Below, one piece after another: positions 31,257 through 45,432 of a stretch of DNA of 64,000 nucleotides. Both the position numbers and the translations under genes were made by a program. The stretch is from positions 1-64,000 of the forward strand of contig NZ_LMGL01000002.1 of NCBI RefSeq assembly GCF_001427145.1, read 5' to 3'. The number at the start of each line of letters is the position of its first letter. The stretch's first letter is position 1. The DNA is from Microbacterium sp. Root166. GTDB taxonomy: Bacteria; Actinomycetota; Actinomycetes; Actinomycetales; Microbacteriaceae. The notes under the pieces are model-generated. The model made no database searches. It had not been told where the DNA came from and saw only the letters and a program-made list of their open reading frames with translations.

Positions 31257-31265
31257 CGTCGACGC

Positions 31266-31565
31266 ATGATCATCGAGTTCGAGGGTGAGGTGTTCCGCTG
31301 GGATGCCCGCGACGACGCCTCATGGTTCTTCGCCGCCGTGCCGCCCGAGCTGAGCGAGGACATCCGCGAGATCCCGCGTCCCTACCGCGGCTTCGGCGCG
31401 GTGCGCGTTCGCGCGCGGGTGGGTGGCTCGGAGTGGACGACGTCGATCTTCCCCGACTCGAAGGCCGGCTCATACGTGCTGCCGCTGAAGAAGGCGGTCC
31501 GGGATGCCGAAGGCTTGGTCGACGGCGGGCCCGTGGTGGTTCGGCTCGACGTGCTCGACGGGTGA
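31266..31565 (+). CDS. DUF1905 domain protein
   Basis: A 99-aa all-beta protein. The order FEGEVFRWDARDDASWFFAAVP, then GFGAVRVRARVGGSEWTTSIFP and SYVLPLKKAVRDAEGL matches DUF1905, whose members often occur alone or fused to a YdeI-like domain. No catalytic residue is known for the family. It begins nine bases after the membrane protein gene. Confidence 0.88.
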   Translation: MIIEFEGEVFRWDARDDASWFFAAVPPELSEDIREIPRPYRGFGAVRVRARVGGSEWTTSIFPDSKAGSYVLPLKKAVRDAEGLVDGGPVVVRLDVLDG

Positions 31566-31634: not shown

Positions 31635-33569
31635 CTACCCGACGCCGCAGCCGACCACCTTATAGAGCGAGGACGAGCCGGAGCGGAACGCGAGTTCGAC
31701 GTTGGGGGAGTCGTCGAGATTCTCGAGGCCGGGTTGCGGCCGAAGGATCGGGGACGGGTTCTCCTTATGGAACTCGAGGACCCACTTCACCTCGAGGTCG
31801 CGCGCTGCCTCGCAAGCGGCGTCCCCGGTGGTCGCGCTGGCAAAGCCATCGAGGAACGCCCTCTTCTCCGGAGAGATCGGAGCAAGAAGGTGCCCTACGA
31901 GCACCGGACGCCCGGTCAGTGCGTACGCCAGACTCGAGCCATCGCGCGGACTGCCCGCGATGACCTCGTCGCGGGGAACGATCTGCTCGATCTGGGACAG
32001 CACCGCACGGTCGTCAGGGCTGACCGCGAGAAGCGCCTGGATGGGATTGTCTGTGGGGGTGTAGACCGCGTTCATCCATGAGTCGGTCCGACGCACACCG
32101 GGTGACTGCACCAACAGTGTGCAGAGGATGAGCAGCGCGAGCGAACGGGTCACCAGATCGAAGCGGTGGAGACCCGAGGTGCGCAGCAGCTGAGCGATCC
32201 AGATCCAAGCGGACTGCACGCCGACCGCGGCGAGCGGAATGATCACGGCGGGAGCGAACGCCGCGATGCGCGTGGCATCCGAGTACCAGGGGCCGGACAT
32301 GACGATGCGGAGGAACTCGTTGTCCCCGGCGGCGGAGATGTAGAGGAAGCCCACGATGGCCCACATTCCCACCGCTACGCCGTCGCCGGCTCGACCACGC
32401 TTGATGCTGAGAACGATGCCGATGGTGGTGAAAGCGGCAGTGACCAGCGGGAGGATCGAACTCGCGTAGGACTGGGTAAGCACTTCGCCGATCGCCTGCG
32501 GGATCGTCGATCGCCAAGCAGCGGGCTGCTCGATGTGCGGCCGGACGAACACGATCATCGCCAGCACTGCTGCCACGGCAAGTGCACCGAGCAAGAGGAC
32601 GAGTCGGCCGCGCTCATGGCCCTTGCGCGCGGTCCGGAGCGCGGCTGCAATGACTGGCGGCAGTGCCAGGACCGCGAGCATGACGATTACCGAGGGGTGG
32701 GTCAGCGCAATAGCGGGGACTGAACCTGCCGCCACGGTACCCGCAGCAACGCGACGGATATTTCCGGCGCCGATTCCGCAGCACGCGCAGATTGCGGCGA
32801 GGCCGATCGGCAGTAACGCGATACCCGCCACGAGCGGAAAGGTGCCGAGATACGGAAGCAGATAAAACGGATAGAGGGCGAAACCGGCTGACAGAGCCCC
32901 GGCAGCGATGAGGAGTACCGGCTGGGTTCCGAAGAGGGTGCGTGTGAGAAGGACCGCGCCGAGTGGCCAGATGAGGCACGTGAAGACGACCAGCACTGCG
33001 TTGGTGGCAGTGGGAATGGACGCTCCTGATACTCCGACGACGAGGGCTGATATCGCGTGCCAACCGGTGGGATAGAAGTCGATTGCCGCGGACGGGTCAC
33101 CGAAGCCCCCGAATCCAAAGGGGGACGCGATGCCGCTGTCGAGGATCGAGCGCACGGCATTCAGATGGAAGACATTGTCTCCGACCTGTGCGAACGCATC
33201 CGGTGCTGGAATCGCTGACGCGAGACGTACTGTCAGCAGAAAAGCACCCAGCGCTACTCCGAGCGTCGACGACCAGCGCGAGTTCACAGCATCGGAGTGC
33301 CGTGGTCGCAGAAATGGGATGGAACGAGTCAGAAGTGCCGCGATCAGCGCGAGTACGGCTGTAAGCCCGAGTACCACCCACAGCGACCAGACCGCTCCGA
33401 TGGCAGCGGCTATCGCCGTCGATGTCGTGATCACGGAGACGCCGAGGGCGGCGCCGGCACCGGCAAGCCACAGGCCACGAAGCCGCAGCGCCGCCGCGAT
33501 GCTGAGCCCCGGCAGGAAGATGACCACCACACAGCAGGTGATCGACCACACCAGCTGCCACCAGTGCAC
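31635..33569 (-). CDS. DUF6541 multi-spanning membrane protein
   Basis: A 644-aa protein with about 13 predicted membrane helices and a hydrophilic C-terminal domain from about residue 500. The start is GTG 33569 with AAGGAG five bases before. The N-terminus (VVVIFLPGLSIAAALRLRGL) and total layout match DUF6541, actinobacterial membrane proteins resembling GT-C glycosyltransferases. An acidic/His loop after the first helices, as in GT-C enzymes, may be present in DNVFHLNAVRSI. It stands divergently next to the pilin genes; pilin or wall glycan modification is an inference. Confidence 0.75.
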   Translation of the reverse strand: MHWWQLVWSITCCVVVIFLPGLSIAAALRLRGLWLAGAGAALGVSVITTSTAIAAAIGAVWSLWVVLGLTAVLALIAALLTRSIPFLRPRHSDAVNSRWSSTLGVALGAFLLTVRLASAIPAPDAFAQVGDNVFHLNAVRSILDSGIASPFGFGGFGDPSAAIDFYPTGWHAISALVVGVSGASIPTATNAVLVVFTCLIWPLGAVLLTRTLFGTQPVLLIAAGALSAGFALYPFYLLPYLGTFPLVAGIALLPIGLAAICACCGIGAGNIRRVAAGTVAAGSVPAIALTHPSVIVMLAVLALPPVIAAALRTARKGHERGRLVLLLGALAVAAVLAMIVFVRPHIEQPAAWRSTIPQAIGEVLTQSYASSILPLVTAAFTTIGIVLSIKRGRAGDGVAVGMWAIVGFLYISAAGDNEFLRIVMSGPWYSDATRIAAFAPAVIIPLAAVGVQSAWIWIAQLLRTSGLHRFDLVTRSLALLILCTLLVQSPGVRRTDSWMNAVYTPTDNPIQALLAVSPDDRAVLSQIEQIVPRDEVIAGSPRDGSSLAYALTGRPVLVGHLLAPISPEKRAFLDGFASATTGDAACEAARDLEVKWVLEFHKENPSPILRPQPGLENLDDSPNVELAFRSGSSSLYKVVGCGVG

Positions 33570-33763
33570 GGGAACTCCTTCGGTGGCGATCGCGGGCGGA
33601 AGATTGAAAGGCGCTGCGAGAATCGCGCGGGAAGCACCTATCGGAATTCTGGACGATTCGATACGGTCCGTGACCGTTTGCGGCGATTCCTGAGCGGAAT
33701 GCGTAAGCGAATGTGGTTCTTGAGAGTTTCCTGAGTGAACCCTGCGGTACGCTCCGTTGACAG

Positions 33764-33787
33764 GAGCATGAGAGAGATCTCATGCTC
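33764..33787. promoter_or_regulatory. 24-bp palindrome upstream of the pilus operon
   Basis: GAGCATGAGA and TCTCATGCTC (10 bp arms) enclose four bases. TTGACA at 33757-33762, two bases before, looks like a -35, so the palindrome would cover the spacer and -10 and could be an operator. The 373-bp gap between the DUF6541 gene and pilA holds no convincing gene. It is AT-richer than its surroundings and also has CATATATGG near 33859 as an alternative -10 region. Confidence 0.6.
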
Positions 33788-33901
33788 ATGGGTGGGAGGG
33801 GATTCACGCCGAACCGCGTGCGTCTCACCTCGGCTCTGATGAGGTCGGGGACGCAACATATATGGGGTTTGTGTCGATCAGTCACGTTCGTGGCTTCATC
33901 A

Positions 33902-33942
33902 GTGCTGTCCGAAACCATCCACCGCATTAGGGGAGACAGCAC
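33902..33942 (+). promoter_or_regulatory. Leader inverted repeat around the pilA ribosome binding site
   Basis: GTGCTGTC (33902-33909) and its exact complement GACAGCAC (33935-33942) bracket 25 bases. The right arm abuts the pilA start codon. The Shine-Dalgarno AGGGGAG lies in the loop at its 3' edge. If the RNA folds, the start codon would be next to a stem, so translation could be modulated. Confidence 0.55.
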
Positions 33943-34317
33943 ATGCGTGCATTCATCAAGAACTACATGGACGACCTGAAGAAGCAGCGCGAAGAGCGCG
34001 GCGAAGATGGCGGCTTCTCGCTCATCGAGCTCATCGTCGTCGTCGTGATCCTCGGCATCCTCGTCGCCATCGCGATCCCGGTGTTTCTCGGACTGCAGGC
34101 GAACGCCGAGCAGTCCGCGCAGGACACTGTTGCAGCGAACGCTGCGACGCAGGCCGCTGCGACCATCGCCAACGGCTCGAGCGCTCACACATTTGCCAAC
34201 CTCGAGGATGGCGCTACATACGACATCACGATCGCGGACGGCGACACCCTCGACGACTTCTGCGTCACGGTCGAGGGCCCCGCAGCCGTCGACTCGACCT
34301 CCGGCCCCGGCTGCTAA
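33943..34317 (+). CDS. pilA: Type IV major pilin
   Basis: A 124-aa prepilin. The 24-residue charged leader ends in Gly-Gly, cut before Phe25. The mature start FSLIELIVVVVILGILVAI has the required Glu5 and a hydrophobic helix for packing in the pilus. The mature protein is only about 100 residues, small for a pilin. Two Cys in the last 20 residues (FCVTV and the final Cys) could form the C-terminal disulfide loop. A strong hairpin follows the gene. Confidence 0.9.
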   Translation: MRAFIKNYMDDLKKQREERGEDGGFSLIELIVVVVILGILVAIAIPVFLGLQANAEQSAQDTVAANAATQAAATIANGSSAHTFANLEDGATYDITIADGDTLDDFCVTVEGPAAVDSTSGPGC

Positions 34318-34327
34318 TCAGCCCATT

Positions 34328-34354
34328 CGGGGTGGGGACATCGTCCCCACCCCG
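34328..34354 (+). terminator. Hairpin between pilA and the minor pilin genes
   Basis: CGGGGTGGGGAC (34328-34339) pairs perfectly with 34343-34354 over a three-base loop. It follows the pilA stop by ten bases. It probably acts as a partial terminator or 3' stabiliser that gives more major pilin than minor pilin transcript. Confidence 0.8.
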
Positions 34355-34383
34355 ATTCCCGCTTAAGCGCTCTGGGGAGAGAG

Positions 34384-34797
34384 ATGAACAATCGAGAGTC
34401 AGATGCAGGCTTCGGCCTCGTCGAGGTGATCATCTCCATGCTTCTGCTGGCGATCATCGCTGTGGCTCTCATCCCGCTCCTCTGGCAGGGAATCAGGCTC
34501 GCGTCGACGGAGTCGGCCACGGCGACCGCAACCCGCCACGTGAACTCGCTCGTAGAGGAGCTGCGTGAACAGCCCACGTGCGCCAGGGTCGCCGGCGCTG
34601 TCACAGCTCCAGCCGTGACGGATGGACGCGGGTCATCCCTGACCACCTCAGGCTCGTACCGCACCTACGCGATCGACGGCACGCTCGGCACTCTCGGCTC
34701 GTGCGCGTCGGACACGACCGTGCGGGTCCAGCTCGCCGTCACCGACTCTGACGGTGACGTCATCGCCCGCACGACGGCATTGGTGTTCATCCCATGA
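34384..34797 (+). CDS. Type IV pilus minor pilin, PilV-like
   Basis: A 137-aa prepilin with a short nine-residue leader ending AG, then FGLVEVIISMLLLAIIAVAL with Glu5. The start ATG 34384 follows GGGGAGAGAG. Two Cys occur in the globular part (PTCARV, GSCASD). The position after pilA and before PilW- and PilX-like proteins fits a pilus-initiating minor pilin. It overlaps the next gene by four bases. Confidence 0.82.
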   Translation: MNNRESDAGFGLVEVIISMLLLAIIAVALIPLLWQGIRLASTESATATATRHVNSLVEELREQPTCARVAGAVTAPAVTDGRGSSLTTSGSYRTYAIDGTLGTLGSCASDTTVRVQLAVTDSDGDVIARTTALVFIP

Positions 34798-35330
34798 GGG
34801 CTCCCAAGCGGCAGCACAGTGACGAGAGCGGACTCGGTCTCATCGAGCTCATCGTCGCGATCATCGTCGGGGGCATCATCATGGGCGCCGTCGTGATGAT
34901 CTTCGTGAACTCATGGCGGACTCAGGAAGAGGTGACGACGGTGACGCAGGCAACCAACCGCGGTCAGCTCGTAGGCGCCACCATCGAACGCGCCATGCGC
35001 AACGCGCTCTTCTTCGAGGTCGACGCGACCGGCACCGAGCTGCGCGTGCGCACCTCACTCGACGGAGAACTGCAATGCCAGGGCTTCCGGATCGTCGCCG
35101 GCGCGGCGCAAATGACGACCGATACCACAACTCTTTCGACTCCCTCGACGTCATGGCCGACGTGGCAGAGCGGCGTCGTTCAGCGACCCGGTGTGCCGTT
35201 CTTCGTGGCAACGGGCGACGTCGTCGTCTACACCTTCGATCTGACCACCGAATCCGCCCCCGTGCGGATCAAGGGCGAGGTCGCAACGCGGTCTATGACT
35301 GCAGGAGGGAGCGGGACATGCTGGTCGTAG
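34794..35330 (+). CDS. Type IV pilus minor pilin, PilW-like
   Basis: A 178-aa prepilin. The leader of 13 residues ends in Gly before LGLIELIVAIIVGGIIMGAV, with Glu5 present. The globular region has beta-rich segments and two Cys (LQCQGF and TCWS at the end), again allowing a C-terminal disulfide. It overlaps the next gene by 13 bases. Confidence 0.82.
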   Translation: MRAPKRQHSDESGLGLIELIVAIIVGGIIMGAVVMIFVNSWRTQEEVTTVTQATNRGQLVGATIERAMRNALFFEVDATGTELRVRTSLDGELQCQGFRIVAGAAQMTTDTTTLSTPSTSWPTWQSGVVQRPGVPFFVATGDVVVYTFDLTTESAPVRIKGEVATRSMTAGGSGTCWS

Positions 35331-36928
35331 ACCGCCTGCGCGCTCAAATGCGCGAGTCCGATGACCGAGGCGCCGTGTTGATGTCCGTCGTCATCGTCAT
35401 GATCGTCGGCTTCATCGTTGCGACCGCCATCGCGGCTTCCGTTGTGGCCACCATCGGTGCCAACGCTCAGAACGGTGACAATCTCGATTCTTTTGTCGCA
35501 GCAGAGTCGGGCCGCGATGTCGCCGTCAGTGCGCTCAACGCCGGATGCAGTCCGACGCAGACCAACTTCGCGGGCTCGTCCCCGCAGTTCACCAGTCGGA
35601 TCTATCAGACGGCCGGCGCCCAGCCCGAGTCCGCCGCCTCGACCGGTGTCACGGCGGGGTGCCCGACGTCCGCGACCAAGTACGTCGTCATCGAGTCGAC
35701 GGGAACGGGGCCCGACGGCACGACGACCACCATCAACTCGGTATACCCCTGGTCGGTCAGCTACGCCGAGGTTCCCGGAGGCGTCGTCACCTACTTCTCC
35801 GGCAGCGTGACGCAGGGCGTTGCGCACTACACCGGTGACCTGGTGCTTCGAAGCGGCAACTGGTCGTGCAACATCAACGGCATCCTCGACGGTGACCTCT
35901 ACGTGCTCAACGGCACCGTCTCGCTCAGCAACGGCTGCACGATCAACGGCGATATCTACGCTGACGGCAAGGTGAGCGGCCAGAGCAACGGCTGGCACAT
36001 CAACGCACGGCCGTCCAGCAGCAGCGTCGGCAACATCACGACCAACGGCCTCGTGGACCTGCGGTCCAACGGCAATACTTCGGTGGCCGGCAAGATCCAC
36101 GCCGGCGGCGAGGTCATCCTCGACGACAACGGCGGTGGCCTCGGCACTGTCGGCGGCACCGTGATCTCGATGGGCTCCGTGACGAAGGACCCCGGCTGGA
36201 CGACCGGCATCGTCACTCCGAACTCTCCGGACGAGCCTGTCTTCGAGCCCACGCTCGAGTGGCTCGAAGCCGCCTCGCAATGGATCGACCTCGATGCCGC
36301 CTCAGGTTGGGGAACTCCGATGGCGATCAACTGCAACGTGCTCCAGAACGCGAACACCGCCTCGGCCTTCGTCGAACCGTTGCTCGCCGCGTCCACGGCG
36401 CGCCTCGTACTCGACTTCTCGGCTTGCACGAAAGACGTGAAGCTCAACTTGGTCGGTGAGACACTCACACGGGATGTCGTCATCATCGCACCGAAGAATC
36501 AGGGCATGGACATCGAGGTCGGCAACCTCAGCGCTGCCTCCCCTGCCAAGCAGCTGCTGTTCATCCACTCCGATGGCAATCGTGACGATCGCGATGCCGC
36601 CGGAGACACGAAGCCGACCTGCGGCAGTACCGGCACCCGCAACACTCCTGACGGTTTCACAGCTTCCAGCGCCATCGACACCGACATCAACGTGATGGTG
36701 TACAGCCCCTGCGGCCTGGGAGGCACCGTGACCGCGAGCTTCTCCGGCCAGCTCTACGCCGATGACACCACACACTTCCACTCCGGCTCGCTCTACACGT
36801 GCCAGCCGATGTCGTGGCCTGGAGCGCTTCCCAAGCTGGGCTGCAAGATCAAGGGCGAGGGCGGGGTCATCGACGAGACCACCTTGACGCAGACGCTCGG
36901 CGTGCTGCTCTACCAGTCCGAGAACTGA
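35318..36928 (+). CDS. PilX-like pilus tip protein with beta-solenoid region
   Basis: A 536-aa protein starting at ATG 35318 behind AGGAGGGAG, inside the previous gene. The prepilin-like end is DDRGAVLMSVVIVMIVGF; like other PilX/GspK proteins it lacks Glu5. Residues about 145-280 show repeated short strands with G, N, D turns (GDLVLRSGNWSCNINGILDG, then DGDLYVLNGTVSLSNGCTIN). This resembles polymer-forming (bactofilin-like) beta-solenoids. The rest is an Asp/Asn/Thr-rich adhesin-like part. It is much larger than usual PilX, so it may be a tip adhesin. Confidence 0.78.
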   Translation: MLVVDRLRAQMRESDDRGAVLMSVVIVMIVGFIVATAIAASVVATIGANAQNGDNLDSFVAAESGRDVAVSALNAGCSPTQTNFAGSSPQFTSRIYQTAGAQPESAASTGVTAGCPTSATKYVVIESTGTGPDGTTTTINSVYPWSVSYAEVPGGVVTYFSGSVTQGVAHYTGDLVLRSGNWSCNINGILDGDLYVLNGTVSLSNGCTINGDIYADGKVSGQSNGWHINARPSSSSVGNITTNGLVDLRSNGNTSVAGKIHAGGEVILDDNGGGLGTVGGTVISMGSVTKDPGWTTGIVTPNSPDEPVFEPTLEWLEAASQWIDLDAASGWGTPMAINCNVLQNANTASAFVEPLLAASTARLVLDFSACTKDVKLNLVGETLTRDVVIIAPKNQGMDIEVGNLSAASPAKQLLFIHSDGNRDDRDAAGDTKPTCGSTGTRNTPDGFTASSAIDTDINVMVYSPCGLGGTVTASFSGQLYADDTTHFHSGSLYTCQPMSWPGALPKLGCKIKGEGGVIDETTLTQTLGVLLYQSEN

Positions 36929-36931
36929 CCC

Positions 36932-37771
36932 ATGACGCCGCTCACCGCCTTCATCGTCGTCACCGCAGGCGTGTTCGGGCTGCTCATCGGTTCTTTTCTG
37001 AACGTGGTTGCCTACCGGGTGCCAGCCGGGATCTCGCTGCTGCGCGAGAGCCGGTGCCCGCAGTGCGATGCAGCGGTGAAGCCGTGGCAGAACGTGCCGG
37101 TCGTCTCCTGGCTCGCGTTGCGTGGCCGGTGCGCCGCCTGCCATTCGCCGATAGCGCCGAGATACGCGGTCGTCGAGGGCATCACGGGTCTCGCGTTCGC
37201 CGCGATCGCGTGGTGGGCGCTCACCGCCGGCCTCGCCGTTCCTGCCACGTCGTCTCCGCAGATCTGGGCGGACGCGCTGATCATCATCGCGTTCCTGTAC
37301 TTCGCCGCGATCAGCATCGTACTGACGCTCATCGACCTCGACACGCACCGCCTGCCGAATGCGATCGTGCTGCCCAGCTACCTTGTCGCCGGTGTGCTGC
37401 TGACGGCCGCCTCAGCCCTGAGCGGCGATTGGATCGCACTACTCCGGGCAGCGATCGGCATGGTTTCGCTCTACGCGTTCTACTTCCTGCTCCGGCTCGC
37501 CCGACCGGGGGGAATGGGCGGCGGCGACGTCAAGCTTGCCGGCGTCGTCGGACTCTACCTCGGCTTCATCGGCTGGGGCGCGCTGGTCGTCGGTGCATTC
37601 GCGGCCTTCGTGCTCGGAGGCGTGTTCGGCCTCGCGCTGATCGCGCTGCGCCGTGCCGGCCGCAAGACGGCAATCCCTTTCGGCCCGTGGATGATCGCGG
37701 GCGCCTGGGTGGGAATCTTCACGGGCGAGGCTCTCGCCCGGTGGTACATGGAACTGTTCGCCTCCGTGTGA
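36932..37771 (+). CDS. pilD: Prepilin peptidase (A24 family)
   Basis: A 279-aa membrane aspartic peptidase that cleaves and usually N-methylates prepilins. The cytoplasmic N-terminal domain has two CxxC pairs (RCPQCDAAVKPW and RCAACHSPIAPR), typical of bifunctional enzymes. The catalytic Asp pair is in LIDLDTHRLP near residue 135 and GGGDVKLAG near 195. Eight membrane segments are expected. It begins four bases after the PilX-like gene. Confidence 0.93.
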   Translation: MTPLTAFIVVTAGVFGLLIGSFLNVVAYRVPAGISLLRESRCPQCDAAVKPWQNVPVVSWLALRGRCAACHSPIAPRYAVVEGITGLAFAAIAWWALTAGLAVPATSSPQIWADALIIIAFLYFAAISIVLTLIDLDTHRLPNAIVLPSYLVAGVLLTAASALSGDWIALLRAAIGMVSLYAFYFLLRLARPGGMGGGDVKLAGVVGLYLGFIGWGALVVGAFAAFVLGGVFGLALIALRRAGRKTAIPFGPWMIAGAWVGIFTGEALARWYMELFASV

Positions 37772-37824
37772 TGGGAGCGGCGTGAGCCGCCGCGGGAGCG
37801 ACTTCGAAGAAGGTAGGTGAGACC

Positions 37825-38859
37825 ATGGCGAAAACCTCCGTGGCGCTCGAGATCACAGAGGAAAGTGTGCGCGCCGTCGAGATGACGACGGGTCGCTCTC
37901 CGGCGCTGGTCGCGGCCGGTGAAGTGCCGCTGCCGCGTGAGGCGGCGAAAGACTCGGAAGTGCTCGATCCGGATGCGGTTGCTGTCGCGCTGCGCCAATT
38001 GTGGACGTCCGCAGGCATCAAGGGTCGTCGTGTCACGGTCGGCGTCGGCAGTCGCCGCATCCTCGTCCGCGAGTACACCACTCAGGCGATGAAGCCCGAG
38101 CTGCTACGCCAGGCGCTGCCCTTCCAGGTGCAGGATTTGCTTCCGGTACCCGTGGCCCAGGCCGTGCTCGACTTCTACCCCCTCACGCAGACCGGTGACA
38201 TGATTTCGGGGCTGCTGGTGGCCACCGTCTCGGAGACGATCGAGCAGATCATCACCACGCTCGGCAAAGCGAAGCTGCAAGCGGATGCCGTCGACCTCGT
38301 GCCCTTCGGACTCGCGCGGATCGCCAAGCGCGTCGCCGAGCCAGGGGAGACGGTGGCGATGATCCACATCGGCGACCACACCTCTCACGTCGTGGCAGCG
38401 ACGGACGGCATCCCGCATTTCGTGCGCATCATTCCCGTCGACGTGGCGACCACTGCTGCTCGGCGCGAAGAACTCGCCGCGCCGACACCAGAGTTGGAGT
38501 TGGAAGAGATGCTCGAGTCGGTGCCACCGCGACCTACGGCCGCCGGAACCCGCGCCGCGATGCGGAGCAACGGTGGCGCCAACTCACCGGCGGTCAACGA
38601 CCTCGTCGCGCGCTTGCGCAGCACGATTGCGTTCTTCGCCGCGCGCCCCGGGGCCCCGCAGGTAACGCGAGTGTGCGTCAGCGGAGCCGGGTACCTCGCA
38701 CCGGGTGTGGCCGAGACGCTCATTCGCGCATTCGACCTGCCCGTGCTGCCCGTGCGTCTTGATCAGCTGATCAACGTCGGCAAGCATCCGCTGCCCGACG
38801 AGCTCGCATTCAACACGGTCGCCACGGCGGGCGTACTCTTCGGGGAGGCCTCGCGATGA
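37825..38859 (+). CDS. pilM: Type IV pilus assembly protein PilM
   Basis: A 344-aa actin-like ATPase fold protein. The N-terminus TSVALEITEESVRAVEMT is the first phosphate loop strand; VGVGSRRILVREY and IHIGDHTSHVV follow. PilM recruits PilN through its N-terminal peptide on the cytoplasmic face of the pilus motor. The gene follows GAAGGTAGGTG by spacing suitable for translation and overlaps pilN by four bases. Confidence 0.88.
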   Translation: MAKTSVALEITEESVRAVEMTTGRSPALVAAGEVPLPREAAKDSEVLDPDAVAVALRQLWTSAGIKGRRVTVGVGSRRILVREYTTQAMKPELLRQALPFQVQDLLPVPVAQAVLDFYPLTQTGDMISGLLVATVSETIEQIITTLGKAKLQADAVDLVPFGLARIAKRVAEPGETVAMIHIGDHTSHVVAATDGIPHFVRIIPVDVATTAARREELAAPTPELELEEMLESVPPRPTAAGTRAAMRSNGGANSPAVNDLVARLRSTIAFFAARPGAPQVTRVCVSGAGYLAPGVAETLIRAFDLPVLPVRLDQLINVGKHPLPDELAFNTVATAGVLFGEASR

Positions 38860-39503
38860 GCGTCGCAGTACCTGTGCTGGTTCGGCCCGGGGTTCCCCGG
38901 GTCAACCTCATGCCCAAGGCGGAGATTGAGCGTCGCGAACGTGCGAAGCTCATGCGGCGATGGTTGTGGGGAGCGCTCGGCGCGCTGCTCCTGTCCGCGG
39001 TCATCGTGGCCGGTGCCGTCGTGCTTTCGTGGTTCGCTCAACAGCGGCTGGCCGCAGAGCAGGCGGAGACGACGCAGCTGATCTCCGAACTCGCGGCACT
39101 CTCTGACGTGAGCGCCGCGCTGTCCACCGAGTCCGACCTCGACGTCTTCCGCTACGAAGCCATGGGATCGGACTTCGCGTGGGAGCCGGTCATCGGCCAG
39201 GTACAGGCTTCGCTGCCTGCCGGAGTCACATTGACTGGCTTCGATCTGATAACCGGCGGTATCCCGCAAACCGACGACCCGACGGCGGAGCTCGGTCTCG
39301 TGGGCTCGCTGACATTGGCGAGCCCCAACGCGATCGACATCGGTCAGACGGTGCGCAGCGTCCGTGGCCTCGAGATCGTCTGGGACGCGGACGGCAGGCT
39401 CCTCTCCACCGATCAGCAGCTGTCCGGCGTCTACACCTATCAGCTCGAAGTGGCGTTCAACCAGACGATCTATTCCGGTGACTATGCCGAGGGAGACGAG
39501 TGA
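38856..39503 (+). CDS. pilN: Type IV pilus assembly protein PilN-like
   Basis: A 215-aa bitopic membrane protein. A cytoplasmic tail contains VPRVNLMPKAEIERRERAKL, which matches the conserved INLLP-like PilM-binding peptide of PilN. One transmembrane helix spans residues about 38-60, followed by a short coiled coil and a ferredoxin-like extracytoplasmic domain. Sequence similarity to Gram-negative PilN is weak, but order and topology support the call. Confidence 0.82.
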   Translation: MSVAVPVLVRPGVPRVNLMPKAEIERRERAKLMRRWLWGALGALLLSAVIVAGAVVLSWFAQQRLAAEQAETTQLISELAALSDVSAALSTESDLDVFRYEAMGSDFAWEPVIGQVQASLPAGVTLTGFDLITGGIPQTDDPTAELGLVGSLTLASPNAIDIGQTVRSVRGLEIVWDADGRLLSTDQQLSGVYTYQLEVAFNQTIYSGDYAEGDE

Positions 39504-40177
39504 TGCCTAAGCAGCTCATCAACATCATCGGACTTGTCGTCTGCCTCGGCATTCTCGCCCTCGCCATCGCGCTCGTCGCGGTGCCGATGTATCTGCAGTC
39601 CGTCGGGACCAACGCCGAGGCGAGCCAGGTCGCGCAGACCAACGACATCTACCAGATCCAGGTAGACAGCCTCGAGGTGCAGTCCGAGCGCATGGACGAG
39701 ATCGAGGCATCTGTCGCCGATCACCGTGCGGAGATTCCCGCGACCAACCGGCTCGACGATGTCTTCGAACTGATCGCGCGATCGGCATCGGCCACCGGGG
39801 TCGAGTTGCAGACTGCGACCGCGGGCCTCGATGCGCCCTTCACCGTCCGCACGGAGGCTCTGGTGGTCGGGGAGGTGGCGGAGGTGACGGAGCCCGCCGA
39901 GACCGATCCCACCACCGATCCCGCCGTCGAGGACCCTGCAGCCGCGGCGCCGACGGATACGTCAGGCGACGTGCCGGTGGCCGCAGGCGACGGACGCGTG
40001 CAGGTCGACTTCGTGTTCACCGTGACTGCCGTCGACTTCAACACCGTGGTGCGATTCCTGGATGCCCTGCGCTCGGGACCACGCCTGCTCAGCTCCATCC
40101 AGTCGACGGTGATACCGACCGGCACCGGTTACGACGTGACGGTGTCCGCTCTGACCTTTGTGCTTCCGGAGGCGTGA
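39503..40177 (+). CDS. pilO: Type IV pilus assembly protein PilO-like
   Basis: A 224-aa bitopic protein with a transmembrane helix at residues about 6-30 (INIIGLVVCLGILALAIALV). A coiled-coil stalk follows to about 80, then a C-terminal ferredoxin-like domain. An acidic Pro/Glu/Thr/Asp-rich insert (about 130-160) separates the last strands. TGATG couples it to pilN; GTG 39500 is an alternative start. It would pair with PilN. Confidence 0.8.
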   Translation: MPKQLINIIGLVVCLGILALAIALVAVPMYLQSVGTNAEASQVAQTNDIYQIQVDSLEVQSERMDEIEASVADHRAEIPATNRLDDVFELIARSASATGVELQTATAGLDAPFTVRTEALVVGEVAEVTEPAETDPTTDPAVEDPAAAAPTDTSGDVPVAAGDGRVQVDFVFTVTAVDFNTVVRFLDALRSGPRLLSSIQSTVIPTGTGYDVTVSALTFVLPEA

Positions 40178-40180
40178 ATC

Positions 40181-41320
40181 ATGGCCCAGACAATTCTTGA
40201 CGGTCTGCTGGCGTCGGCCGCCCGCAAACGAGCATCGGACGTCCACCTGACGGGGGACGCCGCGCCCCTCATGCGCGTCGACGGCGATCTCGAGGCGATA
40301 CCTGGCTTCGAGGAAGTCATTCCCACCGCGTGGGTGGAGGCGGCAGCGCACGAGCTGATGACTGCCGCGCAACGGCAGGAGTTCGAACAGCATCACGAGG
40401 TCGACCTCGCCCACGCCTCGGACGGCCTCGGACGGTTCCGTGTCAACGTCTACCGTCAGCTGGGCTCGATAGCGATCGCTCTTCGTTTCATCCCCGAGCG
40501 CGTGTTCACGCTCGAGGAGCTCGGCGCGCCGGCAGTCGCCCGCGACCTCGCGCTCAGGCCGCGCGGCATGGTGCTGCTCACCGGCCCGACCGGTTCGGGC
40601 AAGTCGACCACGCTGACGGCGATGGTCGACATCATCAACAAGACGCTCCCGGCACACGTGATCACGATCGAGGACCCGATCGAGTTCCACCACGAGAGCA
40701 AGATGTCGCTCATCCACCAGCGCGAGGTCGGCACCGACACGAACTCGTTCACCGAGGCGCTGCGTCGCGTTCTTCGTCAGGACCCCGATGTCATCCTCAT
40801 CGGTGAGCTTCGCGACGCCGAGTCCATTTCGACGGCCCTGTCAGCCGCGGAGACCGGCCACCTCGTGCTGTCGACGTTGCACACCCAGGGCGCCGCGAAG
40901 AGCATCAACCGCATCATCGATGTATTCCCCTCGCACCAGCAGGCGCAGATCCGCACGCAGCTCGGCGACACACTGCAGGGCGTGATCAGCCAGACGCTGC
41001 TGCCGCTGGCCCAGACCGAGGGACGAACGATCGCCACCGAGGTGCTCGTCAACACTCCGGCAGTGGCCAACCTCATTCGTGAAGGCCAGGTACCGCAGAT
41101 CTACTCCGCCATGCAGGCCGGGGCGAGTGTGGGAATGCACACGCTGGATCAGGATCTCAAGCGGCTCGTGTCGGAGGGGCGAATCGCGCAGCACGTTGCG
41201 AAGGCGTACGCCGTGGATCCGTCGACGCTGGACGACGTCTACGTCCGCCCACGGGATCTCGACGCGGAGGCGTGGAGCACCCACGCCGGCGAGTGGCACC
41301 ACCAGAACTCGGGGGTCTGA
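40181..41320 (+). CDS. pilT: Type IV pilus retraction ATPase PilT
   Basis: A 379-aa hexameric ATPase. Walker A is LLTGPTGSGKSTTL near residue 133. The Asp box and Walker B are IEDPIEF and VILIGELRDAES, and the His box is TGHLVLSTLHT. The segment NTPAVANLIREGQ matches the AIRNLIRE motif that marks PilT rather than PilB. Presence of PilT predicts retractile pili capable of twitching or DNA uptake. Confidence 0.93.
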   Translation: MAQTILDGLLASAARKRASDVHLTGDAAPLMRVDGDLEAIPGFEEVIPTAWVEAAAHELMTAAQRQEFEQHHEVDLAHASDGLGRFRVNVYRQLGSIAIALRFIPERVFTLEELGAPAVARDLALRPRGMVLLTGPTGSGKSTTLTAMVDIINKTLPAHVITIEDPIEFHHESKMSLIHQREVGTDTNSFTEALRRVLRQDPDVILIGELRDAESISTALSAAETGHLVLSTLHTQGAAKSINRIIDVFPSHQQAQIRTQLGDTLQGVISQTLLPLAQTEGRTIATEVLVNTPAVANLIREGQVPQIYSAMQAGASVGMHTLDQDLKRLVSEGRIAQHVAKAYAVDPSTLDDVYVRPRDLDAEAWSTHAGEWHHQNSGV

Positions 41321-41321
41321 C

Positions 41322-42560
41322 ATGCCGGTCATCGAGGAATACACCTACCGCGCGGTCGACCCACGCGGCGGGGCCATCGTCAAGGGCACGATCGAGGCGG
41401 GAAGCGAGGCGGCGGTCGCCGGCAAGCTCCGGGCTCAAGGCCTCACTCCGATCTCGGTGGCCGCCGTATCGACGTCCGGGCTCAATATGGAGATCAAGCT
41501 CCCGGGCCTCACGAAGCACGTCAACCCGAAGACGCTGGCGGTCTTCGCCAGGCAGATGGCGGGTCTCATCAACGCCGGCCTGCCACTCATGCGGACGCTG
41601 TCGATTCTGATCGATCAGACCGATGACAAGCGCCTGCAGCCGGCTCTCGTCTCGGTGTACGCCGATGTCGAGTCGGGCTCGTCCTTCTCGGGCGCCTTGT
41701 CGCGGCATCCGGATGTCTTCCCTCCCCTGATGTTGAGCATCATCCGAGTGGGGGAGACCGGCGGATTCCTCGGCGGTGCTCTGACCTCGGTAGCCGACAA
41801 CTATCAGAAGGAGGCCGAACTCCATAACAAGATCCGGTCGGCAACCACCTATCCCATGATCGTGTTGATCGTCGCGGTGATCGGTGTGCTCGCGATGGTG
41901 ACATTCATCGTGCCGGTGTTCGAGAACATGTTCGCGGGCTTGGGTTCGTCCCTTCCGCTCCCGACTCAGATCCTCGTCACGCTCTCGAAGAACATGGTGT
42001 GGATCCTTCCCACGCTCTTCATCGGCGGATTCGTGACCTGGGTGTGGTGGATGCGGAACCGCAACACCGAGCGGGTGCGCAAGGTGTGGGACCCGATCAA
42101 ACTCAAGCTGCCCGTCTTCGGAAAGCTCGCCACCAAGATGGCGGTCGCCCGCTTCAGTCGCAACCTCTCGATGATGCTGGATGCCGGCGTCCCGATCATC
42201 CAGGCCCTCGGCATCGTGGGTCAGGCATCGAACAACTGGAAGGTCGAGCAGGCCGTTCTCGAAGTGCAGGAGTCGATCCGCCAGGGCAAGACGTTCGCCG
42301 CGCCACTGGCGAAGGCGAATGTCTTCCCTCCGATGGTGCCGCAGATGGTGTCTGTGGGGGAGGAGTCCGGCACGCTCGTCGACATGCTGTCGAGCATCGC
42401 CGACTACTACGAGGACGACGTCGAGACAGCCACCTCGCAGCTGTCGTCTACCATCGAGCCGATCCTCATCGTCGTGCTCGGCATCGTCATCGGCGGCATG
42501 GTGATCTCGCTCTACATGCCGATCTTCTCGCTCTACGGCGAGCTCGGTCAGAGCAGCTGA
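41322..42560 (+). CDS. pilC: Type IV pilus inner-membrane platform protein PilC
   Basis: A 412-aa member of the GspF/PilC family, starting at ATG 41322. Two copies of the T2SSF domain (near 80-200 and 285-405) show the typical FARQMAGLINAGLPLMRTL and FSRNLSMMLDAGVPIIQAL motifs. Each is followed by membrane helices (MIVLIVAVIGVLAMVTFIVP and the last EPILIVVLGIVIGGMVISLY). It is the last gene of the pilus operon, with two hairpins behind it. Confidence 0.93.
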   Translation: MPVIEEYTYRAVDPRGGAIVKGTIEAGSEAAVAGKLRAQGLTPISVAAVSTSGLNMEIKLPGLTKHVNPKTLAVFARQMAGLINAGLPLMRTLSILIDQTDDKRLQPALVSVYADVESGSSFSGALSRHPDVFPPLMLSIIRVGETGGFLGGALTSVADNYQKEAELHNKIRSATTYPMIVLIVAVIGVLAMVTFIVPVFENMFAGLGSSLPLPTQILVTLSKNMVWILPTLFIGGFVTWVWWMRNRNTERVRKVWDPIKLKLPVFGKLATKMAVARFSRNLSMMLDAGVPIIQALGIVGQASNNWKVEQAVLEVQESIRQGKTFAAPLAKANVFPPMVPQMVSVGEESGTLVDMLSSIADYYEDDVETATSQLSSTIEPILIVVLGIVIGGMVISLYMPIFSLYGELGQSS

Positions 42561-42570
42561 GGGCTCGGCG

Positions 42571-42592
42571 CCCCGATCCCCTCCCATCGGGG
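42571..42592 (+). terminator. First hairpin after pilC
   Basis: CCCCGAT (42571-42577) pairs with ATCGGGG (42586-42592) over eight bases, ten bases after the pilC stop. Together with the next hairpin it forms a tandem terminator. Confidence 0.6.
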
Positions 42593-42609
42593 TGGGGGTG
42601 TCCGACAAG

Positions 42610-42644
42610 CCGCCCCCGGGTGAGGCGAAAGCCCCCGGGGGCGG
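42610..42644. terminator. Bidirectional terminator between pilC and pilB
   Basis: CCGCCCCCGGG (42610-42620) pairs perfectly with CCCGGGGGCGG (42634-42644). It lies ten bases before the end of the convergent pilB gene, so it can end both transcripts. Confidence 0.85.
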
Positions 42645-42654
42645 TGCTATGTCG

Positions 42655-44325
42655 TCAGAGCGAGACGCGCAGGACTTCTTCGATCGTCGTGAGGCCCTGG
42701 GCCACCTTCGACCAGCCGTCCTCGCGCAGTGAGACCATGCCCTGCTGAATCGCCATCTGGCGCATCTCGGTGCCGGTCGAGCGCATGACGAGCAGCTGCT
42801 CGAGCTCGTCGGTCATGGTCATGACCTCATGCAGGCCGATACGGCCGCGGTAGCCGGTGCCCGAGCACGAGACGCAGCCGACGGCGCGATACAGCTGCGG
42901 CACGTCATGCGGGTCGTGCGGGAAGCCGAGCGAGCGCAGCACCTCGGTGGGCTCGGTGTAAGCCGCGCGGCAGCGCAGGCAAAGCCGGCGGGCGAGTCGC
43001 TGGGCGATCACGGCCGACAGCGCCGTCGCGACGAGGAACGGCTCGGTGCCGATCTCGGTGAGACGCGTCAGCGCCGACGGGGCATCGTTCGTGTGGAGCG
43101 TCGACAGCACGAGGTGGCCTGTGAGGGCCGCCTCGATCGAGATGACGGCGGTCTCCTTGTCGCGGATCTCGCCGACGAGCACCACATCGGGGTCGCTTCG
43201 CAGGATGGACCGCAGCGCCGACGCGAAGGTGAGGCCGGCTCGGTTGTTTACCTGCACCTGGTTTATCCCCGCCATGCGGTACTCAACCGGGTCTTCGACC
43301 GTGATGACGTTGATACGCGGATTCGCGACCGTCTTGAGCGCCGTGTAGAGCGTCGTCGACTTGCCCGAACCGGTCGGGCCGGTCGCGAGGATCATGCCGT
43401 GCGGGCGCGAGATCGCCTCGCGGAAGCGCTGCTCGTTGATCGAGGAGAACCGCAGGTCGCTGAGCGCCATGGCCTGACCGGAGTTGTCGAGGATTCGCAT
43501 GACGATCTTCTCGCCCCACACCGTCGGCAGCGTCGCGACGCGGAGGTCGATCGCGCGTCCTTCGTGCTCGACCGAGAGGCGACCGTCCTGCGGCTTGCGC
43601 CGCTCGGCGATGTCGATCGACGACATGATCTTCAGGCGCGAGATCACGCCGTCCTGGATCGAACGGTCGGCCTTCTGCATCTCGTGCAGCACACCGTCGA
43701 TGCGGAACCGCACCGTCAGCTGGCGCTCGCCGGGCTCGACGTGGATGTCGCTCGCCCGGTCGTTGATGGCCTGGGTGATCAGCAGGTTGACGAAGCGCAC
43801 CACCGGGGCGTCGGCATCCTGATCCTCCAGCACCTCGGTGAAGGTGACTCCGGAAGTCTCGCCGGCGGACTCGCCGATCTGCTCGGACAGGTCGCTGAGC
43901 TCTTCGTCGGAGCGCAGGTACCGCTCGAACGCCTGCCGCAGCGCATCGCCTGCGACGACCACGGCTTCGACCGACAGGTCGGTGATGCTCGTGATGTCGT
44001 CGATCGCGATGATGTCGGTCGGATCGAGCATGCCCACAACGACCTTGTTGCGCATGCGACTCAGCGGAATGAGCTGATATCGGCGACAGAGCGCGCCCGG
44101 CACGAGGCCGAGCACGTCCTGATTGATCTCGACACCGTTCATGTCGAAGTACCGGTGGCCCGTCTGCAACGCCACAGCTTCGGCGATCTGCGCCTCTGTG
44201 ACGATGTTCGAGCTCACCAGAAGCTGTTGAAGCTCCGGACCCTCACCTGCCTCCGCCATGGCTGCCGACATATCGGCAGCACGAACGGCCCCAGTCAGAA
44301 CGAGTGTTTGAGCGAGTCCTCTCAT
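42655..44325 (-). CDS. pilB: Type IV pilus extension ATPase PilB
   Basis: The preferred reading is 556 aa from ATG 44325 behind AGGGGAA; an ATG nine codons earlier lies at a TAGTAT box. The N-terminal MshEN domain (GLAQTLVLTG onward, VALQTGHRYFDM) is a possible c-di-GMP site. Walker A is ATGPTGSGKSTTLYTALK, Walker B is DVVLVGEIRDKETA, and the zinc tetracysteine is CLRCRAAY with CVSCSGTGYRGR. It is encoded apart from and convergent to the other pil genes, so extension and retraction motors can be regulated separately. Confidence 0.93.
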   Translation of the reverse strand: MRGLAQTLVLTGAVRAADMSAAMAEAGEGPELQQLLVSSNIVTEAQIAEAVALQTGHRYFDMNGVEINQDVLGLVPGALCRRYQLIPLSRMRNKVVVGMLDPTDIIAIDDITSITDLSVEAVVVAGDALRQAFERYLRSDEELSDLSEQIGESAGETSGVTFTEVLEDQDADAPVVRFVNLLITQAINDRASDIHVEPGERQLTVRFRIDGVLHEMQKADRSIQDGVISRLKIMSSIDIAERRKPQDGRLSVEHEGRAIDLRVATLPTVWGEKIVMRILDNSGQAMALSDLRFSSINEQRFREAISRPHGMILATGPTGSGKSTTLYTALKTVANPRINVITVEDPVEYRMAGINQVQVNNRAGLTFASALRSILRSDPDVVLVGEIRDKETAVISIEAALTGHLVLSTLHTNDAPSALTRLTEIGTEPFLVATALSAVIAQRLARRLCLRCRAAYTEPTEVLRSLGFPHDPHDVPQLYRAVGCVSCSGTGYRGRIGLHEVMTMTDELEQLLVMRSTGTEMRQMAIQQGMVSLREDGWSKVAQGLTTIEEVLRVSL

Positions 44326-44412
44326 AATGATTCCCCTATCCCCGATCGTCATACTAGGCCCATAGTGAGGGTGCAGTCACGAGCTGAGGAAACCCTTGGG
44401 TAGGGTGGCGCC

Positions 44413-45432
44413 ATGGCTGAGCTGATCGCCAAGGTGACCGCATGGGCCCTCTCACTGAAACCGGTGCGGGTCTGGTTCCACTTCCTCGAGCGCCGCGGCC
44501 TCATGCTGGCGGACTCCATCACGTACCGCGCGCTGTTCTCGGTCTTCGCCGGAGTACTGCTCGGCTTCACCCTGGCGTCGCTCTGGCTCGCCGACAACCC
44601 GACGGCCTGGGCCGCTCTGGTGAACACCGTGGACGCGGCGATCCCGGGCCTCCTCGGCGAGGACGGCATCATCGAACTCGACGCGATCAAGGCACCCACA
44701 GGCCTCACCCTCACGGGCGTGATCGCCGCCGTCGCCCTGGTCGGCGCCGCGATCGGAGCCATCGGCTCGCTGCGTGCAGGACTGCGCACCCTCGCCGACG
44801 AGATCCACGACGACGTCTTCTGGATCTGGGTGATCGTCCGCAACCTGCTGCTCGCCCTCGCCGTCGGCGGTGGCTTCGTGCTGTCGGCCGCGGTGACGTT
44901 CTACGGCACGACATTCATCGATTGGACGGCCGACGCGCTCGGAATCGAGGGCTTCGTCGCGGATGCCGCCACCCAGGCGCTCGCACTGGTTGCCGTGTTC
45001 GTGCTCGACGCCGCCGTGATCGCCCTCGCCTTCGTCGTGCTCAGCGGCGTCAAGGCACGCCCCGGCACCCTCATCGTCGGCTCGCTCATCGGAGGGATTG
45101 GCCTCACGGTGCTGCAGCAGCTCTCCGGCCTGTTCGTGCGAGGAGCCGGGGCTAACCCGCTGCTGGCGTCGTTCGCGGCGCTCATCGCGCTGCTGATCTG
45201 GTTCAATCTGTCGGCCCAGGTCATCCTGCTGGCGTCGACCTGGATCATCATCGGCGTCCACGAGCGCGCCGACCGCGTGCGCGAGAAGTTCGGCGCTCCC
45301 TCGTTCGAAGCCCGCCGCGTGAAGCGAGCTGAGGACGCCCTCCGCGTCGCCGCGGAGGAACTTGAGGTCGCTCAGCAAGCCGCGGCAGAGGCGCGGGAGA
45401 AGTCGAAGCCGAAGGCCGCCGTCACCAAGTAA
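44413..45432 (+). CDS. YihY/virulence factor BrkB family membrane protein
   Basis: A 339-aa protein with six membrane helices in residues about 40-300. The pattern GLMLADSITYRALFSVFAGV and ADEIHDDVFWIWVIVRNLLL matches the YihY/UPF0761 family. A basic/Ala-rich coiled tail (RRVKRAEDALRVAAEELEVA) extends into the cytoplasm. The family was once called ribonuclease BN, wrongly; transport or envelope roles are suspected only. A TAGGGT box lies just before ATG 44413. Confidence 0.88.
   Translation: MAELIAKVTAWALSLKPVRVWFHFLERRGLMLADSITYRALFSVFAGVLLGFTLASLWLADNPTAWAALVNTVDAAIPGLLGEDGIIELDAIKAPTGLTLTGVIAAVALVGAAIGAIGSLRAGLRTLADEIHDDVFWIWVIVRNLLLALAVGGGFVLSAAVTFYGTTFIDWTADALGIEGFVADAATQALALVAVFVLDAAVIALAFVVLSGVKARPGTLIVGSLIGGIGLTVLQQLSGLFVRGAGANPLLASFAALIALLIWFNLSAQVILLASTWIIIGVHERADRVREKFGAPSFEARRVKRAEDALRVAAEELEVAQQAAAEAREKSKPKAAVTK

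Follow-up and report, generated by a model that had tools for sequence, protein, structure and literature searches.

A 64,000-nucleotide stretch of the Microbacterium sp. Root166 genome (contig NZ_LMGL01000002.1, positions 1 to 64,000; the whole stretch is called the window here) contains a full and intact type IVa pilus (T4aP) locus of the monoderm type that spans positions 33943-44352. The genes pilA-V-W-X-D-M-N-O-T-C lie on the plus strand and pilB converges on them. From the sequence, we consider it very likely that this locus encodes an intact, retractile T4aP of a monoderm that has been passed on mostly vertically in Microbacterium and that has a gene order specific to this genus. In the mechanism that we propose, PilD would trim and methylate the four prepilins, PilM-PilN-PilO and PilC would form the membrane platform, and PilB would add PilA at the base and PilT would remove it, with the filament crossing the cell wall as it extends and retracts and needing no secretin. 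PilV, PilW, and PilX would form a GspI-J-K-like tip complex in which PilX, without the glutamate at position 5 (Glu+5), would present a beta-solenoid at the tip. A hairpin after pilA may keep the major pilin above the other products, and PilD would mature the cell's Tad/Flp prepilins as well. The genes are as follows.

33943..34317, plus strand: pilA, major prepilin of 124 aa, long leader then G|FSLIE (PF07963, 1e-6)
34384..34797, plus strand: pilV/GspI-like minor prepilin of 137 aa (PF07963, 6e-5; TIGR02523 pilV, 1.5e-7, under cut-off)
34794..35330, plus strand: pilW/GspJ-like minor prepilin of 178 aa (PF07963, 6e-5)
35318..36928, plus strand: pilX, 536 aa, predicted GspK/ComZ-like tip minor pilin (AlphaFold2 model, Foldseek, VIA-align)
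36932..37771, plus strand: pilD, bifunctional prepilin peptidase/methyltransferase (PF06750, A24_N; PF01478, A24)
37825..38859, plus strand: pilM, actin-like cytoplasmic ring protein (PF11104, PilM_2, 9e-16; TIGR01175, 7e-27, under the curated cut-off)
38856..39503, plus strand: pilN (position and conservation across related loci)
39500..40177, plus strand: pilO, GTG start (PF04350, sub-threshold E of 0.03; position and conservation in related loci)
40181..41320, plus strand: pilT, retraction ATPase (TIGR01420, 2.5e-136, above cut-off; motifs)
41322..42560, plus strand: pilC, platform protein (PF00482, T2SSF, 6e-64)
42655..44352, minus strand: pilB, extension ATPase with N-terminal MshEN (PF00437, T2SSE, 3e-138; PF05157, 1.6e-14; TIGR02538)

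All eleven named pil genes are open frames in the order first described by an earlier sequence-only reading of this DNA, which proposed a complete monoderm locus with four prepilins, PilD, PilMNO, PilT, and PilC, and a separate, convergent pilB. Both proposals held up, with PilN and PilO named because of their position and their conservation in related loci. There are two candidate starts for pilB, 44352 and 44325, the latter being the choice of that reading. The N_methyl profile (PF07963) was found in three prepilins (PilA, PilV, and PilW), and PilD keeps both Asp motifs and the four-Cys motif.

PilT scored 454 bits against TIGR01420 (cut-off 319). PilB scored 627 bits against TIGR02538, under the cut-off of 676, and none of the congeners tested scored above it either. 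Walker A, Walker B, and His box motifs are present in both ATPases and both genes are open; the disrupted motor genes that the earlier reading had named as a finding that would speak against it were not seen. Among rows from loci with the usual Microbacterium gene order (type B, described below), Walker A and the His box occur in 65 of 70 PilT and 62 of 64 PilB. Our search pattern for the Asp box gave no match in PilT, yet ITIEDPIEF stands in the translation. PilT also carries AVANLIR, which we take to be a counterpart of the AIRNLIRE motif, and PilB carries C..C-C..C. As to control of PilB by cyclic di-GMP, MshEN is present, but the c-di-GMP motif model scored 15.6, far under its cut-off of 38, and we do not propose such control.

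The lack of a secretin expected for a monoderm was borne out, with no PF00263 match in the genome using a profile that was positive in 6 of 14 control genomes. According to the available text of two papers (PMC6916266; PMC8179133), the T4aP of Streptococcus sanguinis likewise has pilins, a peptidase, PilB, PilC, PilM-N-O, and PilT, no secretin or outer-membrane parts, and large modular minor pilins. It differs in that here pilB is separate and convergent, the host is a high-GC actinobacterium, and a predicted solenoid inserted in the tip pilin stands in place of vWA or lectin modules. Modular pilins are described as widespread in the portion available of the latter paper (PMC8179133).

Distribution, gene order, and origin of the locus

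The earlier reading had called type IV pili with PilMNO and a retraction ATPase unusual compared with the Tad pili common in actinobacteria. Our counts do not support this for the present lineage. PilM_2 is present in 44 of 149 Microbacterium genomes and in 240 of 396 genomes of a phylum sample; in the family sample it reaches 145 of 299 genomes, which represent 51 of 85 genera. A TadA-family ATPase scored above cut-off in 24 of 24 Microbacterium genomes tested, including that of Root166, so the two pilus types coexist. There is no TadA-type ATPase in the pil locus, where the ATPases are of the PilT and PilB type; TadA-type and TadE genes lie elsewhere. Actinobacterial T4aP are already in print (PMC6916266; PMC6668835), and an early survey lists, in the part available, three Actinomycetales rows without a Pil operon (PMC3244431). 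In the available literature on type IV pili of Microbacterium or Microbacteriaceae, we found no paper on this locus. Actinobacterial T4aP are known from genome surveys and we found little on their function.

Among the best 80 of 111 named relatives, those close to the window PilM are nearly all from Microbacterium, the exceptions being Stenotrophomonas- and Planococcus-labelled contigs, one "Microbacteriaceae bacterium", and Nocardioides nematodiphilus at 43%. The contigs labelled Stenotrophomonas maltophilia P13 (L121) and Planococcus sp. APC 4015 (L134) carry Microbacterium-type pil genes and are probably contaminated or mislabelled.

We distinguished two types of locus, type A in other Microbacteriaceae genera and type B as the usual form in Microbacterium. 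Type A reads (B-)T-C-A-V-W-X-D-M-N-O on one strand; pilC precedes pilA in 20 of 20 such loci (L057-L076), many of these stretches stopping short of pilB. Type-A loci of other Microbacteriaceae (L057-L076, L141-L161) have the gene set and the PilC clade in common with type B and differ from it in this order and single direction. We fetched 22 non-A Microbacterium loci, including the window, and 17 of these have A-V-W-X-D-M-N-O-T-C followed by an inverted pilB adjoining pilC. In the other five, the convergent pilB lies 3.2-3.3 kb past pilC (L038 and L182, from G013 and G098), the locus is divided between contigs (L183), or B-T-C is inverted (L180 and L181). Of 77 named loci, 55 have a Microbacterium-type PilM (L087-L140, L160). 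The type-B end is seen in 47 of the 55, and the remaining eight comprise contig edges, L091 (no pilT detected), L136 (no N, O, T, or C detected), rearranged loci (L117 and L132), and one from Nocardioides.

Tandem double T4aP loci occur in M. salsuginis (L040/L087), M. gallinarum (L041/L111), M. flavescens (L109), and L117. In L109 two sets flank one inverted pilB and none was detected after the second set; L117 is similar with its left end cut. With its single pilB, L109 may run two filament systems from one extension motor.

The Microbacterium order is a genus-specific, rearranged form of that of the family. The orders A-V-W-X-D-M-N-O-B-T-C in Nocardioides (L138) and A-V-W-X-D-M-N-O followed by inverted C-T-B (L180, L181) look like steps between types A and B. 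Alternatively, type B could be a transferred homologous locus that replaced a resident type A at the same site instead of arising by rearrangement in place. A few Microbacterium carry loci that look like type A (5 of 44 by PilM score), which would fit replacement. Four of these were fetched: L053 is complete, L054 has no pilB within the stretch, L179 is on a short contig, and L055 (G037) has D-M-N-O with pilC, pilT, and pilB not found. L053, with full order, and the incomplete L055 adjoin yihY, and the PilC proteins of L053 and L054 are on a long separate branch, both of which also fit replacement. The intermediate orders in L180, L181, and L138 are what stepwise rearrangement predicts, and we regard replacement as rather unlikely. 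Single transfers are likely (G121), and the type-A loci in a few Microbacterium were probably moved in this way.

The locus lies between a DUF1905 gene and yihY, with extra genes inserted in some genomes, such as the DUF6541 gene in the window.

31257..31562, plus strand: DUF1905 open frame, left-hand site marker (PF08922, 1e-24)
31635..33569, minus strand: DUF6541 membrane protein, between the DUF1905 marker and pilA (PF20176, 3e-140)
44413..45432, plus strand: yihY/brkB, right-hand site marker, adjoining pil loci of both types (PF03631, 7e-27)

Type-A loci inside Microbacterium have this chromosomal site in common with type B. Among 138 loci, 17 have the full type-B order without an adjoining yihY, in some cases owing to the limits of the stretch. 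We examined 12 pilus-less Microbacterium genomes that were hand-picked from 105 negatives, mostly few-contig assemblies. Six have DUF1905, a short A24 peptidase gene, and yihY at this site; in the other six yihY is in a different context that is uninformative about the site.

The sequence-only reading took the near-absence of a short word as a hint that the locus was acquired, and recent horizontal acquisition from outside the family is an alternative to vertical descent. Several features could be cited for it. The pil genes have a GC content of 0.63-0.68 compared with 0.69 in the genome sample, GCGGCATCCG words are few, in GC at third codon positions (GC3) the pil genes fall further below rpoB here than in any other species among 17 of type B, and the locus is patchy in the genus (44/149). 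Other findings speak against it. A quick PilC tree (125 rows, SH-aLRT as its only support measure) joins type B, Nocardioides, and the type-A loci of Microbacteriaceae in one clade (SH-aLRT 96), from which the Pseudokineococcus/Streptomyces NP160 pair and nine other phylum rows are separate. Trees were made for PilC from all loci and for a PilC+PilT+PilM+PilD concatenation from 25 genomes, using the first copy of doubled loci. In 17 type-B species, distances for this concatenation correlated with those for RpoB (Spearman rho 0.48; none of 999 label permutations was as high). The site is common to relatives, with a peptidase gene kept there in pilus-less ones, and decaying loci are found in relatives, namely L136, where N, O, T, and C were not detected, and G037, which keeps D-M-N-O while pilB, pilT, and pilC were not found. 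A locus present in most of the family with congruent trees had been named as what would argue against acquisition; this was seen in part, with PilM in about half of the family sample and only moderate tree agreement.

Base composition gave a similar answer. Eight pil genes have GC3 of 0.80-0.88, which is the 14th-49th percentile of 137 genes sampled from twelve 20-kb stretches and called by a rough codon-position rule. The near-absence of the word was correct for the ten-mer, which has one copy (at 41702) in 31.6-44.9 kb. The depletion is mild, with 3.9 copies expected (0.293 per kb x 13.3 kb; Poisson P ~0.1, uncorrected and for a window chosen afterwards), and the same region still holds 9 GGATGCC and 2 CGGATGCCG. 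As few GGATGCC were found in 19, CGGATGCC in 15, and CGGATGCCG in 22 of 135 overlapping 13.3-kb windows. Because GC3 is within the range of the genome and the depletion is mild, recent acquisition is not supported by these measures. We consider recent acquisition largely refuted and highly improbable, and from the sequence the locus is most likely a long-term resident of a fixed chromosomal site. The pilus-less genomes are most simply explained as losses from the ancestral condition.

GGATGC is the most over-represented hexamer in the 304 kb of this genome that we sampled. GCGGCATCCG is not supported as an uptake sequence for the T4aP, with GGATGC at an observed/expected ratio of 1.52 here versus 1.41 in 228 kb from the 12 pilus-less congeners. 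Within genes, 104 of 138 GGATGCC are in one frame, and GAT is favored before certain codons such as GCC (0.42 versus 0.21 overall). Because of this preference, a codon-context effect is likely behind GGATGC.

Some results count against an intact, mostly vertically inherited T4aP. PilN has no Pfam match and PilO has only the sub-threshold one (0.03), and PilB and PilM score under curated NCBIfam cut-offs. The distribution of pilM in Microbacterium is patchy, the agreement between pil genes and RpoB is moderate with G121 discordant, and five pil genes average GC3 0.097 under their own rpoB, the next largest gap among the 17 species being 0.062. Full, doubled, decaying, and absent loci are found within this one genus, many at one site, which makes gain, loss, and reordering traceable.

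The predicted tip pilin PilX

Glu+5 is present in 71 of 71 PilA, 56 of 70 PilV, 63 of 71 PilW, and 1 of 71 PilX among type-B rows, counts for which rows were not made distinct and in which the pattern was unreadable in 11 PilV and 6 PilW rows. GspK-type tip pilins typically lack Glu+5 too. The N-terminus of PilX is prepilin-like by eye. The protein had no match in Pfam (E to 0.1), NCBIfam (0.1), or PDB sequences (E to 1), and only one in PHROGs, with an E of 0.38.

An AlphaFold2 model of PilX from 42 rows (pLDDT 86.3, pTM 0.71) has an N-terminal helix, pilin strands to residue 151, an insert at ~152-506, and final strands at 521-535. The insert is modelled as a beta-solenoid (164-290) and a further domain. 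The sole Foldseek match with E<=0.001 was ComZ (6qvi), with low TM-scores of 0.15/0.16. VIA-align, where the comparison covers the folds in its listing and other folds are possible, gave tapirins at Z 17.1/16.6/15.9 and ComZ at Z 14.7 with an rmsd of 13.7 over 323 residues, followed by other solenoids (bactofilin, Z 11.6; ice-binding proteins, ~11). From this model we predict that PilX is a tip pilin whose fold carries a beta-solenoid insertion, as that of ComZ does, and that it resembles tapirins.

In Thermus thermophilus ComZ, also a minor pilin, a large beta-solenoid interrupts the pilin fold ahead of the last strand, as in the PilX model. ComZ is described, in the text available, as a competence pilin and proposed tip DNA receptor (PMC6561018). 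By contrast, the PilX insert is acidic, sequence identity is low, and DNA binding is ascribed only to ComZ. Structurally, the insert is matched best by the Caldicellulosiruptor tapirins (6n2c, 4wa0, 6n2b), with Z of 15.9-17.1 across ~245 residues and 9-14% identity; tapirins are described as lignocellulose-attaching in the available part of PMC9933333. The prediction for PilX is weakened by the looseness of the ComZ likeness (rmsd 13.7; TM 0.15; low identity) and by matches to bactofilins, ice-binding proteins, and pectate lyases as well; the tip position and the role are deduced from these likenesses.

A filament that serves mainly for DNA uptake, with a ComZ-like DNA receptor at its tip, would fit ComZ being the only Foldseek match at that threshold, the receptor role proposed for it, and the ComEC-family gene in the genome. 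We find this unlikely. The net charge of the insert is -17 in the window protein and is negative in 41 of 42 rows (zero in one), and because the insert is acidic an adhesin is likelier than a DNA receptor. Tapirins outscore ComZ, and ComEC by itself is unspecific. The over-represented word is about equally enriched in pilus-less congeners, so it gives no uptake-sequence link. In the actinobacterial case of Micrococcus luteus, DNA uptake relies on Tad pili, according to the text available (PMC4322843). At the tip, the modelled PilX is most likely an adhesin for surfaces or polysaccharide, and this pilin with its likeness to ComZ and tapirins is a concrete adhesin candidate. In one Microbacterium genome (G141) a PilX-type frame is over double the common length, at 1208 residues (L042:2610-6233).

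PilD and the Tad pilus of the same genome

PilD is the single PF01478 match in the Root166 genome, which is 99.83% complete. Around a second TadA-like ATPase that scored under the cut-off, this genome encodes TadE and TadE/G-like proteins and a 72-residue Flp-like protein recognized by eye, without a Pfam match; Flp and TadE were looked at in this genome alone. It thus holds two pilus systems, T4aP and Tad, with one detected A24 peptidase, and because of this PilD probably serves both. In the genus, A24 was found in 147 of 149 genomes and in 135 of 135 of good quality. Among the 44 PilM-positive genomes, 30 have one A24 alone, always beside pilM, and two more have two A24s that are both pilDs of doubled loci. 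The sequence data support a strong inference that PilD is common to the T4aP and Tad systems. Two points detract from it: 12 of the 44 own an A24 beyond PilD, and the counts are limited to PF01478 detection, which a more divergent peptidase would escape.

The idea of one peptidase for two pili can be tested by removal of a single gene, and related cases are in print. In the available text on M. luteus, one A24 peptidase without a methyltransferase domain, unlinked to the tad genes, serves the Tad pilus (PMC4322843). That peptidase, TadV, is likewise the sole A24 and unlinked to tad; here, by contrast, a full PilD lies within a T4aP locus. MSH systems may borrow a peptidase, as stated in the part seen of PMC6668835.

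The peptidases at the site in pilus-less genomes suggest what may follow loss of the T4aP. The one in G010 aligns at 57% identity with residues 107-263 of the window PilD, its catalytic half, and lacks the methyltransferase half; the one in G024 likewise shows the A24 domain alone. In an A24 tree whose bootstrap had not settled, the site peptidase of G018 falls within type-B PilD rows together with the stand-alone peptidases of G015 and G121 (99/91, 99/89), that of G010 has no firm placement, and a long branch of their own, with no visible descent from PilD, is made up by those of G006, G007, G009, and G024. The A24s of G001, G002, G004, G005, G021, and G022 and the extra ones of pilus-bearing G014 and G107 are in a different clade. 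We tentatively suggest that the Microbacterium PilD is the usual peptidase for both pili in genomes that have a T4aP and that, after loss of the T4aP, selection by the Tad system keeps the catalytic half at the old site; because four of the six site peptidases have no visible PilD descent, we hold this to be somewhat short of probable. If true, such erosion of PilD would be a route by which TadV-type stand-alone peptidases arise.

Hairpins and sequences near pilA

Two regions of the locus fold strongly.

34327..34355, plus strand: hairpin directly 3' of pilA, 13-bp stem and 3-nt loop (34310-34384 folds at -37.5 kcal/mol)
42561..42654, no strand: gap between the convergent pilC and pilB, forming strong hairpins (fold of 42556-42660, -70.1 kcal/mol)

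For the 75 nt after pilA in type-B loci, the mean z of folding was -4.24, and z was less than -2 in 45 of 55 distinct sequences, based on 20 mononucleotide shuffles per sequence. The same threshold was passed after pilV in 7 of 54, pilD in 1 of 56, pilO in 1 of 56, pilT in 2 of 58, and pilC in 22 of 56. For both locus types together, 121 of 122 sequences after pilA fold under -18 kcal/mol, these being raw energies with no control. The post-pilA hairpin is probably a partial terminator or 3' stabilizer, and the pilC/pilB gap probably acts as a bidirectional terminator.

Upstream of pilA, 33757-33787 contains TTGACA and, after it, an inverted repeat of 10 bp without mismatches (33764-33787), a possible promoter and operator. 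A DUF6541 gene near pilA occurs only in the window and in L088 among the 138 loci compared, and a role of its product in pilus modification would be a guess.

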